This document shows, piece after piece, positions 21,556 through 25,840 of a stretch of 32,803 bases of DNA. The translations under genes were made by a program, and so were the position numbers. Position 1 is the stretch's first letter, and each line of letters begins with the position of its first letter. Under the pieces are notes generated by a model. It had not been told where the DNA came from and searched no databases. It was given only the letters and a program-made list of their open reading frames with translations. This DNA is from Polymorphobacter sp. (GTDB lineage Bacteria; Pseudomonadota; Alphaproteobacteria; Sphingomonadales; Sphingomonadaceae): contig NZ_JANYGL010000061.1 of the NCBI RefSeq assembly GCF_025362435.1, forward strand, positions 1 through 32,803, written 5' to 3'.

Positions 21556-21631
21556 CCGTCATCCCCGCGGAGACGGGGGCCTACCACTCCGGCAGTCGGG
21601 TGATGGATCCCCGCCTTCGCGGGGATGACGG
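21556..21631. repeat. REP-like palindromic element
   Basis: Perfect 14-base inverted arms, CCGTCATCCCCGCG (21556-21569) and CGCGGGGATGACGG (21618-21631), enclose further GC-rich partial pairing. This is the widespread proteobacterial intergenic repeat whose false translation gives VIPAKAGIQ-like peptides. Only one copy was noticed in the window. Confidence 0.8.
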
Positions 21632-21800: not shown

Positions 21801-23408
21801 TCACGTCGGGTCGACCGTGCCCATCGCGATCATCCGCAACGCGGTCAGGCTCGGCAGGAAGAAATACTCGCCGCCGCGGGTCTGGACGAACTCGGGCAGG
21901 CCGCTGGCGATGAACGGCGCATTGGCGGCGCCGGCGGGGATGACGTGCTTGTCCGACATCGTCCGGTTGCCGATCAGCGGACAGGCGTCGTTGCCCGCGT
22001 CGAAGTCGAGGCCATAGTTCATCCACTGCTGCTGGATGAACTCGAACTGGCGGAACAGGCTCGAACAGATCGCCATGAAGACGATGCCCTTTTCGCCACC
22101 CGCGTCCTCGTACGGCAGTCCGCGACGAAGGATGCGACGGCGGTTGGTCAGCGTCGATGCGCCGACCGTCGGGCTAAGCTTCGGGTCGAGCATGTCGCGC
22201 GGGTTGGCGCGGCGGATATGCGCGCCGAGCGGGCACTTCGCCCCGTCGCGGTCCTCGCCGTAGCGAAAGCCGGTCATCAGCAGGTTGAACTTCGCCAGCC
22301 GTTGCGCCTCGTTCGAATCACGCGGCTTGCGCAGGGCGATGGCGATGCACGCGGCATATTCGTCGTCGAGCCCGCGATAGTCGGCCCACGTCGGTGCGGC
22401 GACAAGCGGGATGCCGTTGCGCCAGCGCCCGACGATCTTCGCCCGAATCGTCTCGCCTGCTTCCTCGGCGGTCGTCCCAGGGTTGACCGCCTGCCATAGC
22501 GCCGCCTTCGCGGTCATGTCGGCGTCCCACGCGGCGACATCCTGCTTGAGCTTGCGCCAGACCATGAAGGTGCCGTTGCGCGCGAACATCGCCGGCTGGG
22601 TCGCGACCGGCAGCTGCTGGCCCTCGTCGGGCTGGCCGAGGATGAACTCGCCAGCTTCGAGCGGCGACCAGCTTGTCGCCGCATCATAGGTCCCGGTCGC
22701 GAGCTTGCCGCCGCCGATCGCGGCGAGTTTCCCGGCGGCGGGGTCGTCGAACTGGCCGCGGAAGACCGGGTCGCTGATGCCATCGGTGAAGCCGAAGTGC
22801 TCGCGCGCGGCGGGGCGGCGGGTGCCGTCGGGGAGCATCTCCATGATCGCCGCCGAATCCTGCCAGCGCCCCGCGCCGTCGGCACCGTGGCCGCCGACCA
22901 GCGTCACGGCATCGACCGCCAGGCCTTCGAGCCAAACCGTCCAGTCGTCGAGGACGGGGAACGGCGTGCCGTCGGGGTTCGCGCCGACGTTGAGCGAAAT
23001 CCAGATGTGGATCGGGTGCTCGGGCTCGCGCCAAATCCGGTCCCACGCCGCGGGTGCGCTGCCGCCGGCGTCGCCGAGGATCGCGGCGCGGCACCCCATG
23101 CCGTCGACGAACTCGTCGGGCATCAGCCGCAAGGTTCGCGTCGGCAACTCGAGCGCGTGCAACCCCATGAAACTGAAGCCGATGTTGAGTGTCACCGGCG
23201 GCTTGGCGACGATCCGCGTGCCGCTTGCGTCCTCGCTTGCATCCCACGGCTCGGCGGTCGTCACGCGCGCGCGGACCGCGTCGACGAAGGCGCGTCCGGC
23301 GGCGGCGTCGGCGATGTGGAAGAACATGTGTCGGGTAAAAGGAAAGCCGAAGCGGCCGTAGGGGCGGTAGATATTGCCCTGGATGTCGGCGAGTTCGAGC
23401 GTCGTCAT
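21801..23408 (-). CDS. DyP-type haem peroxidase
   Basis: A 535-residue dye-decolourising peroxidase that uses hydrogen peroxide to oxidise varied substrates. The signature GXXDG is in FGFTDGISDP with catalytic Asp209; the proximal haem ligand is His397 in LGAHIRRANPRD; the conserved distal Arg lies in NRRRILRRG (422-430). IQGNI near the start and IVFMAICSSLFRQFEFIQQQWMN are typical of the family. There is no Tat or Sec signal and no obvious encapsulin-loading tail, so it appears cytoplasmic. It is larger than type A/B enzymes and fits the longer C/D-like (P/V class) group. The ATG overlaps the stop of the upstream 316-residue gene (ATGA), so both are made together. Confidence 0.92.
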   Translation of the reverse strand: MTTLELADIQGNIYRPYGRFGFPFTRHMFFHIADAAAGRAFVDAVRARVTTAEPWDASEDASGTRIVAKPPVTLNIGFSFMGLHALELPTRTLRLMPDEFVDGMGCRAAILGDAGGSAPAAWDRIWREPEHPIHIWISLNVGANPDGTPFPVLDDWTVWLEGLAVDAVTLVGGHGADGAGRWQDSAAIMEMLPDGTRRPAAREHFGFTDGISDPVFRGQFDDPAAGKLAAIGGGKLATGTYDAATSWSPLEAGEFILGQPDEGQQLPVATQPAMFARNGTFMVWRKLKQDVAAWDADMTAKAALWQAVNPGTTAEEAGETIRAKIVGRWRNGIPLVAAPTWADYRGLDDEYAACIAIALRKPRDSNEAQRLAKFNLLMTGFRYGEDRDGAKCPLGAHIRRANPRDMLDPKLSPTVGASTLTNRRRILRRGLPYEDAGGEKGIVFMAICSSLFRQFEFIQQQWMNYGLDFDAGNDACPLIGNRTMSDKHVIPAGAANAPFIASGLPEFVQTRGGEYFFLPSLTALRMIAMGTVDPT

Positions 23409-24355
23409 GCGTGCCACTCGACCTGCGGGGCGGCGACTGCGCCGGGGATCAGCGCCGGGCTCGCCGCGCTGGGCTGCGTCGCGGCGAGGAAGCTGCCGAA
23501 GTGCGCGTAGAGGGCGGCGTCGTCGAGTCCCTGCGCACTGCTCGCGAAGCCGGTAAATGCCTGCTGGAGGAACAGTGCCTTGAGGACCGACGGCAGGTCG
23601 CTGTCCGGTGCGGTCGGGAACGGCCGCGCTCCCCAGCCGATGATGAAGCGCCACGCCCCGTACAGCACCAGCGCGACCAGCCCGGCGGCGAGCGCCAAGC
23701 CGGGCCAGCCGCGCGTGACGGCAAGGTAAACCGCCGCCGCAACGACGACCGCGGCGACCGCCCCGACGGCACCCAGCGGCGCCGCCGGGGCGACGAGGCC
23801 ATCGGCCCAGTAATCGTTGAACGGCATCGTCGTCTCGATCTGGCAGCGTACGACATAGGCGTTGAACCCGGCAGCGTCGGTGACGGTCTCGAAGCCAAGG
23901 CAATGGCCGAAGGTCGCGTCAAGCTCGGGCCGCATCGTCGCCCACAGGGTGTCGGTATAGCGCCGCAGCGCCGTCGGGCCATCGAGTTGCTGCGCATCGA
24001 CGTCGGCAGCGAACAGCAGGAACGGCGTCGTCAGCACGTCGACCGGCTGCGCCACCAGCGGGTCGGTGCTGCGTACGAGGCCAGCGAGCGTGTCACTCGA
24101 CTCGCGGCCGTTATACGCGGGACCATCGATCACGACGAAGCGCGCCAAGTGGTTGAGCGTATTGCGCGCGAATGGCGACGACGGGGCATCGGCCGGCGAC
24201 GCCGCGGTCTGGCGCCCGGCGGGGAGCAGCGCCAGCGCCTGCCGCAACAGATGCGGATGCGACCGCGACGCTCCGGTCACGGTATCGACCATGTTGCCGG
24301 TCCGCACCGGGGCGAGCATGGTCAGGAAATAATGGCCGCCGTCGAGATTAGGCAT
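23405..24355 (-). CDS. Unnamed DyP-cassette protein with two membrane helices
   Basis: A 316-residue protein I cannot assign to a named family. The N-terminal soluble part (about 1-185) has ordered motifs: YFLTMLAPVR (9-18), LNHLARFVVID (67-77), FLLFAADVD (112-120), LDATFGHCLGF (145-155) and FNAYVVRCQIETTMPFNDYW (164-183). Two hydrophobic segments follow (about 193-213 and 217-240, with GW pairs between and after), then an alanine-rich tail. The same motif order occurs in the neighbouring 225-residue protein, so they look like paralogues. It sits between that gene (overlap of eight bases) and the peroxidase (overlap of four), implying a joint complex, perhaps a membrane-bound one. Function is unknown. 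Confidence 0.8.
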   Translation of the reverse strand: MPNLDGGHYFLTMLAPVRTGNMVDTVTGASRSHPHLLRQALALLPAGRQTAASPADAPSSPFARNTLNHLARFVVIDGPAYNGRESSDTLAGLVRSTDPLVAQPVDVLTTPFLLFAADVDAQQLDGPTALRRYTDTLWATMRPELDATFGHCLGFETVTDAAGFNAYVVRCQIETTMPFNDYWADGLVAPAAPLGAVGAVAAVVVAAAVYLAVTRGWPGLALAAGLVALVLYGAWRFIIGWGARPFPTAPDSDLPSVLKALFLQQAFTGFASSAQGLDDAALYAHFGSFLAATQPSAASPALIPGAVAAPQVEWHA

Positions 24356-25025
24356 GACCGCCGCCCGCCTTCCCGCCGGCCGCCACCCGCGTCGCGATGA
24401 AGCTTCGCCGCGCCGTGTCGGCGCTCCGCGTCGCGACCGAGGCGATCGGGGCGAAGCCCGGTGCGGCGAGCGAATTGATCAGCCGGGCAAAGGCCGCGCG
24501 ATACGAGGCGGCGAAGACGGCAGGGTCGCCCTGCGCGTGGACCGTGCCAAGCCCGAGCATCTCGCGGCGGACGCGCAACGCCGCCTTGATGTCGCGCTGC
24601 GCCGACCCCGGCGTCGCGTTGTAATAGTAATTCGTCTGGATCTGGTTTGCGCCGATATAGTCCTTGAACACCGAGATCGGGATCGAATGCGGGTATTTGG
24701 TGCTCGCGTACCAGAACAGGTCGAGCCCGCCCGGGATGCCGTCGGCGAAGGCATCGATATACTGGTCCCATGTCCCGTTGAAGTTCGACAGGAACAGCAT
24801 GTAGTCGTTCGTCAGCGTCTGCTTGCCCTGGCCGAGATCGGGCCATTGGTCGCGGCGGATCATCACCCAGCGGGCGAAGTGGATCAGCTTGAGCCCGAGC
24901 AGTCCCGCGAACTGCGACGGCATTGCCCGTCCCGCCATGAAGATCAGGACCTGGAGCCACGTCCTCGACGGCCGCATCGGGGTCAACACGTTCATCGCAT
25001 AGGCTTTGCCGGCGATGTTCGACAT
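24348..25025 (-). CDS. Unnamed DyP-cassette protein, first gene of the operon
   Basis: A 225-residue protein of no family I can name. Motifs in order are YAMNVLTPMRP (9-19), LKLIHFARWVMI (45-56), YMLFLSNFNGTWDQYIDAF (75-93), LDLFWY (101-106), FKDYIGANQIQTNYYYN (120-136), then a basic helical tail ending in a Gly/His-rich stretch. Each has a counterpart in the same order in the next gene, which suggests an ancient duplication. HFARW and FLSNFNG look like core strands of a ferredoxin-like alpha/beta fold, the same fold class as DyP itself; this is inference. An internal ATG at residue 11 is an alternative start. It shares eight bases with the downstream gene. Confidence 0.8.
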   Translation of the reverse strand: MSNIAGKAYAMNVLTPMRPSRTWLQVLIFMAGRAMPSQFAGLLGLKLIHFARWVMIRRDQWPDLGQGKQTLTNDYMLFLSNFNGTWDQYIDAFADGIPGGLDLFWYASTKYPHSIPISVFKDYIGANQIQTNYYYNATPGSAQRDIKAALRVRREMLGLGTVHAQGDPAVFAASYRAAFARLINSLAAPGFAPIASVATRSADTARRSFIATRVAAGGKAGGGHA

Positions 25026-25212: not shown

Positions 25213-25815
25213 TCAAGCGGTCAGGAGGCGCTTGTAGCGCAGGCCGACGCCGACGACGGTAAACCCGGTCGCGAGCAAGGCCCATGTCTCGGGGTCGGGC
25301 ACCGAGCCGGTGCCGGCGCCGGGGCCCGATACCGGGAGGGATGCGGGCGGCAGGGGCGTCGAACCGCCGCCACCGCCGCCGCCGCCGCCGACCACGCCGC
25401 CGCCGCCACCGATCACACCGCCACCGTTTCCGCCGCCTCCGCCGATACCTCCGCCGCTGCTACCGCCCCCGCCACCGCTGCCACCGCCGGGGAAGCCGCC
25501 GCCGCCCCCGCCGAAGCCGCCGGGCTGCGAGGCGCCGCCGATCGGACTCGCGAGACCGGCAAGATTCGTCAGACCACCGCCGCCGATACCGGGCGCGCCG
25601 CCAGGGCCGCCGGCCTCGGCCAGCGTCGGGGCGCAGGGGATGTTGGCGTATTGCATCGGCGCGGCCGGGGCGGCCGGCACGCCGTCGAGTCGATTGGCCG
25701 CGCGCTGGAGCAAATGCGCAACCGCGTGCCGCGCGGGCTTGTGCACCGCGACGATCACCGGCGGCGCGACGAGCGCCGGGCAAATGCAGAGAGCGACGAC
25801 CTTAGCTTTTAACAT
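25213..25815 (-). CDS. Glycine-rich PEP-CTERM (PEPxxWA-type) sorting domain protein
   Basis: A 200-residue secreted protein. The ATG at 25815 gives a signal-like start (MLKAKVVALCICPALVAPPVIVAV). The middle (about 99-151) is nearly all glycine. The C-terminus VPDPETWALLATGFTVVGVGLRYKR is an exosortase-type tripartite signal: a PEPxxWA motif (here PDPETWA, with Asp for the usual Glu), a hydrophobic helix and a basic end. Such proteins are processed by exosortase and displayed outside the cell, often with exopolysaccharide. No exosortase gene is in the window. An upstream in-frame GTG (25836) is less likely. The role of the glycine tract is unknown, perhaps a flexible or aggregating surface segment. 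Confidence 0.82.
   Translation of the reverse strand: MLKAKVVALCICPALVAPPVIVAVHKPARHAVAHLLQRAANRLDGVPAAPAAPMQYANIPCAPTLAEAGGPGGAPGIGGGGLTNLAGLASPIGGASQPGGFGGGGGGFPGGGSGGGGGSSGGGIGGGGGNGGGVIGGGGGVVGGGGGGGGGSTPLPPASLPVSGPGAGTGSVPDPETWALLATGFTVVGVGLRYKRLLTA
25363..25521 (-). repeat. Poly-glycine-coding simple repeat
   Basis: About 160 bases of imperfect GGC/GGT/GGA triplet repeats code for residues 99-151 of the PEP-CTERM protein, about four fifths glycine. The frame is maintained. Triplet slippage could alter its length without breaking the gene. Confidence 0.85.
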
Positions 25816-25840
25816 GACAACCCCGACGCAAACCAAGCAC

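Follow-up and report, generated by a model that had tools for sequence, protein, structure and literature searches.

The window, the whole 32,803-nucleotide stretch of Polymorphobacter sp. DNA that was analysed, carries three genes arranged head-to-tail on the minus strand. They encode two partner proteins, A and B, and a DyP-type peroxidase (DyP), and the features of the locus are as follows:

24348-25025, minus strand: gene A, a partner protein of 225 aa with one predicted ferredoxin-like domain and without a strong membrane segment
24348-24355, minus strand: overlap of A and B, 8 bases
23405-24355, minus strand: gene B, a 316-aa paralogue of A (by profile match) with a membrane hairpin
23630-23776, minus strand: membrane segment within B at residues about 194-242, likely a pair of helices (hydropathy up to 2.4 and AlphaFold2 helix)
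23405-23408, minus strand: overlap of B and DyP, 4 bases (ATGA)
21801-23408, minus strand: DyP gene, a DyP-type peroxidase of 535 aa with an ATG start at 23408

The preliminary description had reported three leftward genes overlapping by eight and four bases, and its coordinates were confirmed exactly. The A/B overlap recurs at the same length in a congener (L011), and the B/DyP overlap is retained in L011, L013, L014 and L015. In comparison with one congener, A, B and DyP are under purifying selection (dN/dS of 0.09, 0.17 and 0.08, respectively). No promoter consensus was found in the cassette region and no encapsulin shell gene among the scanned neighbours of DyP (TonB receptor, A, B, RecQ and others). 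Just upstream of A, a Gly-rich protein (25213-25836, minus strand) has the C-terminal end PDPETWALLATGFTVVGVGLRYKRLLTA, which resembles a PEPxxWA-CTERM sorting tail. An inverted repeat (GTCATCCCCGCGAAGGCGGGGAT ... CCGCGGGGATGACGG; 21560-21630) that looks like a REP-type element lies in the gap separating DyP from the convergent TonB-dependent receptor gene.

The DyP protein matched two Pfam families above cut-off (PF21105 with 32.1 bits, cut-off 27.5; PF20628 with 29.2 bits, cut-off 20). Its catalytic residues are intact and fall in invariant columns: the distal D209 (GFTDG), the proximal H397 (GAHIRR) and the distal Arg (R428/R429). The nearest relatives in the PDB are 8re3/8re2 (E 7e-29). 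Judging from its sequence, the protein most likely belongs to the class V/C-like subfamily, and peroxidase activity is predicted. An assignment to EfeB was not obtained (TIGR01412, only 11.1 bits where 428 are required). EfeB in the EfeUOB system and the DyPs that are cargo of encapsulins likewise have dedicated partner genes, but the partners in the window are unrelated to iron-uptake proteins or shells. In L016 (5548-7030) the DyP gene is split across two frames (395 + 119 aa), which reflects either a frameshift or a sequencing error.

Six motifs had been described as common to A and B in the same order. We recovered the full ordered set from each protein, whereas 20,000 shuffled versions of B never yielded it. 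While BLASTP of A against B was not significant (E 0.12), a profile-profile comparison linked the two at 98% probability (E 2.9e-13; 6 + 6 sequences), and a larger one at 99% (E 3.2e-18 over 195 columns; 65 + 67 sequences). The paralogy that had been proposed is thus borne out, and on the basis of these profiles A and B are true paralogues. Intermediates between the two types were also detected, namely the second partner protein of L016, which single-sequence searches connect to A at 1e-10 and to B at 1e-11, and a Granulicella B-type protein without a membrane segment that matches an A-only profile at 1e-18. Conserved residues of A include H49-x-x-R52, F78, Y89, F93 and P112, and the His and Arg are invariant in all variants of the partner domain. 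Neither protein matched any Pfam or NCBIfam family. Matches to CYTH and other Pfam families were below cut-off and not common to the members, and were rejected. By these searches the partner family appears undescribed, in the sense that it is absent from Pfam, NCBIfam and open-licence papers. Relatives of A were not found on viral contigs. Single-sequence searches of the PDB with A and B returned chance hits only, and a profile search with A gave two weak matches (uS3c, E 0.0024; PITG_15142, E 0.067).

The AlphaFold2 model of A (mean pLDDT 84, pTM 0.64) shows its elements in the order beta-alpha-beta-beta-alpha, compatible with the beta-alpha-beta-beta-alpha-beta pattern of a ferredoxin-like domain. 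The highest Foldseek probabilities (0.89, 0.85 and 0.84) went to dimeric alpha+beta barrel proteins, and since their E-values are weak (0.09-0.14), we regard the modelled ferredoxin-like fold of A as likely rather than proven. PeHNL (a hydroxynitrile lyase), At3g17210 and TcmI, all of the dimeric alpha+beta barrel type, may share the predicted fold of A, but no similarity to them in sequence was found, and A has extra C-terminal helices. More generally, searches with Pfam and DyP profiles detected no sequence or profile similarity of A or B to known members of this fold. The model of B (pLDDT 89) has a single long helical segment at residues 194-242. A fold search with B found no match in the PDB; tubulin matches of low probability (TM 0.12) were rejected. 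The preliminary description had suggested that the partners may share the ferredoxin-like fold of DyP. Such a fold is predicted for A, whereas homology of A and B to DyP in sequence was rejected (profile probabilities of 0.2% and 0.04%), and for this reason a DyP-like fold of the partners stands as a structure prediction.

Among the window partners, B alone is strongly hydrophobic (residues about 186-240), in agreement with the earlier placement of membrane helices in the longer partner only. According to the profile alignment, the hydrophobic insert sits inside the shared domain, after the Q-I-x-T strand and before the C-terminal helices. At least one hydrophobic segment was present in each of the 72 B orthologues examined, and such segments were lacking in 65 of 73 A orthologues. 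The segment is missing from the Granulicella B protein, from B of L146-L148 and from the single-domain partner of Deinococcus, and we therefore rejected a membrane tether as a universal feature. The membrane-tethered assembly with DyP that had been put forward fits this clade, with its B segment and single-chain fusions, but does not extend to all members.

A scan of bacterial genomes with the A alignment yielded 386 loci, of which the best 80 were kept, a choice that favours close relatives. These represent alpha-, beta- and gammaproteobacteria and contain A in 80/80, B in 79/80 (the other contig ends at A) and DyP in 75/80 cases; the contigs of the remaining five end too soon for a DyP to be visible. 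Conserved linkage was the outcome of the survey of DyP neighbourhoods suggested earlier, with the order A-B-DyP in 75/75 named loci of this set with enough sequence. In an even sample covering one phylum (399 Pseudomonadota genomes), an A-type domain was present in 26 genomes, each time with a DyP of the subfamily adjoining. Viewed from the peroxidase, 30 DyPs were recovered at E < 1e-50; the partner domain is adjacent in 27, lies about 0.9 kb upstream in one (L158) and was not found in two (L159, L160). No partner domain was found in the 13 genomes whose DyP matches were all weaker than 1e-10. Plasmid records, on which the spread to three further phyla rests, add Acidobacteriota (Granulicella, L167), Deinococcota (D. 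radiodurans, L166) and Actinomycetota (Streptomyces, L170; Rhodococcus, L171), and in these records the partner is annotated as 'hypothetical protein'. In the open-licence literature we found nothing relevant on these DyP neighbourhoods or on DyP-P450 fusions. A gene of 337-340 aa without a Pfam family occupies the gap between partner gene and DyP on the Streptomyces plasmid (L170:7586-8599) and in an alphaproteobacterial genome (L158:7213-8232), and the two proteins match each other at E 1e-159.

The second heme enzyme of the cassette, which was missed by the preliminary description, is the strongest clue to its function. In 51 of the 70 named loci for which 1.1 kb or more is available downstream, the gene right after DyP encodes a P450 (PF00067). 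Of 36 further loci, 16 carry the P450 and 10 a small catalase-family protein in its place; in no case do both lie beside DyP. The catalase-family proteins are weakly related to Pfam Catalase, below its cut-off. The cassette P450 keeps the ExxR and Cys-loop motifs, and its nearest solved structures are ordinary bacterial P450s. The O2-activating acid of the I-helix is replaced by Pro in 10/10 aligned members, with the Thr retained in 8/10 (GAIPT, as opposed to GGNDT in canonical P450s of related bacteria). P450s that lack the I-helix acid fit the use of peroxide instead of O2 and NADPH, and from its sequence we infer that the cassette P450 may do the same, perhaps as a hydroperoxide-processing P450 of the CYP74-like or fungal-fusion kind. 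A large antisense cluster after DyP was dismissed as a shadow of the P450 gene.

Near the window cassette no second heme enzyme was found. Candidates for a missing fourth gene elsewhere in the same genome were rejected, as they are just generic P450s (E 6e-12 or weaker), the only kind found in the genus. In a quick DyP tree, in which some 'none' labels for P450 elsewhere reflect contig ends, the window clusters with three Mesorhizobium loci, one MAG and its congener. No member of this cluster has the P450, and the cluster is nested within branches that do. This nesting fits a loss of the P450, and the window lineage may thus retain the A-B-DyP core alone.

The strongest evidence at hand for a physical cooperation of the parts comes from natural fusions. 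A and B form a single open frame in L082, L085 and L095. In L018 and L141-L143, partner domains with a hydrophobic stretch lead into DyP within one chain, and in L143 the DyP is fused to a catalase-family part. Eight loci (L129-L133, L136, L168 and L169) encode a single chain of about 1410-1620 residues that runs from P450 through one or more partner domains with a hydrophobic segment to DyP; L168 is Novosphingobium pNL2 and L169 is Sulfitobacter. Other architectures were also observed. A 708-aa partner protein (L134:6250-8373) has two partner domains flanking about 10 hydrophobic segments, possibly a multi-helix membrane part. A chain of 1599 aa (L139:356-5152) passes from a partner domain to DyP, an unassigned stretch and a GDSL lipase-like end that is below the Pfam cut-off.

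One of the related sets encodes a peroxidase that has already been crystallised. The structure paper describes DyP of D. radiodurans (DR_A0145, PDB 8re2/8re3) as a class C/V enzyme without activity at neutral pH and asks how it might be switched on (PMC10820274). It makes no use of the words operon, neighbour or partner. By sequence match to DR_A0145 and 8re2/8re3, we identified its gene as one that, like that of the window, starts right after a partner-family gene (WP_051618841; A-only profile, E 5e-11). The set differs from the window in that the partner has a single domain and no membrane segment, and Met replaces the last Gly of GXXDG in the DyP. A catalase-family gene follows, in the place where other cassettes have the P450, and a 3-hydroxyacyl-CoA dehydrogenase gene precedes the set.

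We consider it somewhat probable that A, B and the class V/C-like DyP form a dedicated physical complex in which the partners also serve as anchor. A and B would most likely pair via their ferredoxin-like domains and bind DyP, while the membrane segment of B, or the hydrophobic stretch of the fused forms, would hold the assembly at the cytoplasmic face of the inner membrane. A cytoplasmic location is the most likely one because no signal peptide is evident in A, B or DyP. The partners would most likely be functional subunits, presenting substrate to DyP or changing its heme pocket. The preliminary description had also suggested that they feed DyP with substrate or peroxide, an idea for which this analysis gained no support. 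In many relatives the assembly would also carry the acid-less P450 or the small catalase-family protein, which would handle peroxide or hydroperoxide. Given this second heme enzyme, the two heme centres would most likely pass a peroxide, an organic hydroperoxide or its product from one to the other at the membrane. Paralogy, linkage, gene order, the fusions, the hydrophobic segment and the intact DyP residues are observed; what we infer from them is that the proteins associate physically, that they do so on the cytoplasmic side, that the partners activate DyP or present substrate to it, and what type of substrate is used. The complex is favoured by the fixed gene order, adjacency, overlaps, fusions, P450 neighbours with Pro in place of the acid, membrane segments of B and intact DyP residues. 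Counting against it are the partners without membrane segment (Granulicella, L146-L148 and Deinococcus), the lack of a second heme enzyme near the window and the two subfamily DyPs without a detectable partner.

What such an assembly acts on is a separate matter, and a lipid-hydroperoxide pathway seems to us rather unlikely. Fungal dioxygenase-P450 fusions and the cyanobacterial 10S-DOX with its catalase-related lyase likewise join an oxidase to a second enzyme, P450 or catalase-related, frequently on a single polypeptide, and P450 and catalase-family proteins are the two kinds of enzyme known to act on fatty-acid hydroperoxides next to dioxygenases (PMC13049297). Their oxidase is COX-like and they have no A- or B-type domains, making them functional parallels, not relatives. 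On this model, DyP would make or first convert a lipid hydroperoxide, A and B would present the lipid at the membrane, and the P450 or catalase-family protein would rearrange or cleave the hydroperoxide. This oxylipin-like module, which we think doubtful, draws on the nature of the second enzyme, the single-chain P450-partner-DyP proteins, the chain with the GDSL lipase-like end (below the Pfam cut-off) and the dehydrogenase gene of D. radiodurans. However, open-licence papers gave no DyP acting on fatty acids (the match found was a lipoxygenase paper), and the window has no second enzyme. Many cassette-bearing bacteria also have few polyunsaturated fatty acids, which again speaks against the module.

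Two further roles have been weighed, and both appear quite improbable to us. A and B might deliver heme to DyP or stabilise it while folding, with no part in catalysis; their specificity to one DyP subfamily, the invariant His and Arg of the domain and the binding of heme by several alpha+beta barrel proteins (PMC4835899) agree with this, but the D. radiodurans DyP acquires heme even if the partner is not expressed with it (PMC10820274), and to keep its domains within single-chain fusions would be unusual for a chaperone. The cassette might instead serve general peroxide stress, DyP and the catalase-family proteins removing H2O2 with A and B as accessory anchors. Catalase-family neighbours, as well as KatG and a Fur-family regulator near the Granulicella set, point in this direction, yet a single-chain P450 fusion is hard to explain as scavenging, and the inactivity of the D. 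radiodurans DyP at neutral pH (PMC10820274) is likewise at odds with it.

The dedicated complex therefore remains our preferred reading. A wider proposal, to which we give little credence, is that class V DyPs, instead of being free-standing peroxidases, make up half of a hydroperoxide pathway with two hemes that is organised at the membrane, in which the partners activate DyP or present lipid and an interchangeable P450 or catalase-family protein finishes the reaction. If true, it would constitute a bacterial counterpart of oxylipin or prostanoid cascades built on an unrelated oxidase, and the lack of activity of some purified DyPs at neutral pH would be explained by missing partners. In the search for the natural role of DyP peroxidases, WP_051618841, together with the downstream second heme enzyme, is a specific candidate for a missing factor. 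As the D. radiodurans DyP is encoded directly downstream of a partner gene, the activation idea is testable in that non-pathogenic model organism. The partners themselves make up a widespread protein family that Pfam and NCBIfam lack, and the natural single-chain P450-DyP enzymes may be of use in biocatalysis. A homologous regulator gene lies upstream of each of these single-chain genes examined (L129-L133, L136, L168 and L169), annotated as SARP family in L168 and with TPR matches in L169.
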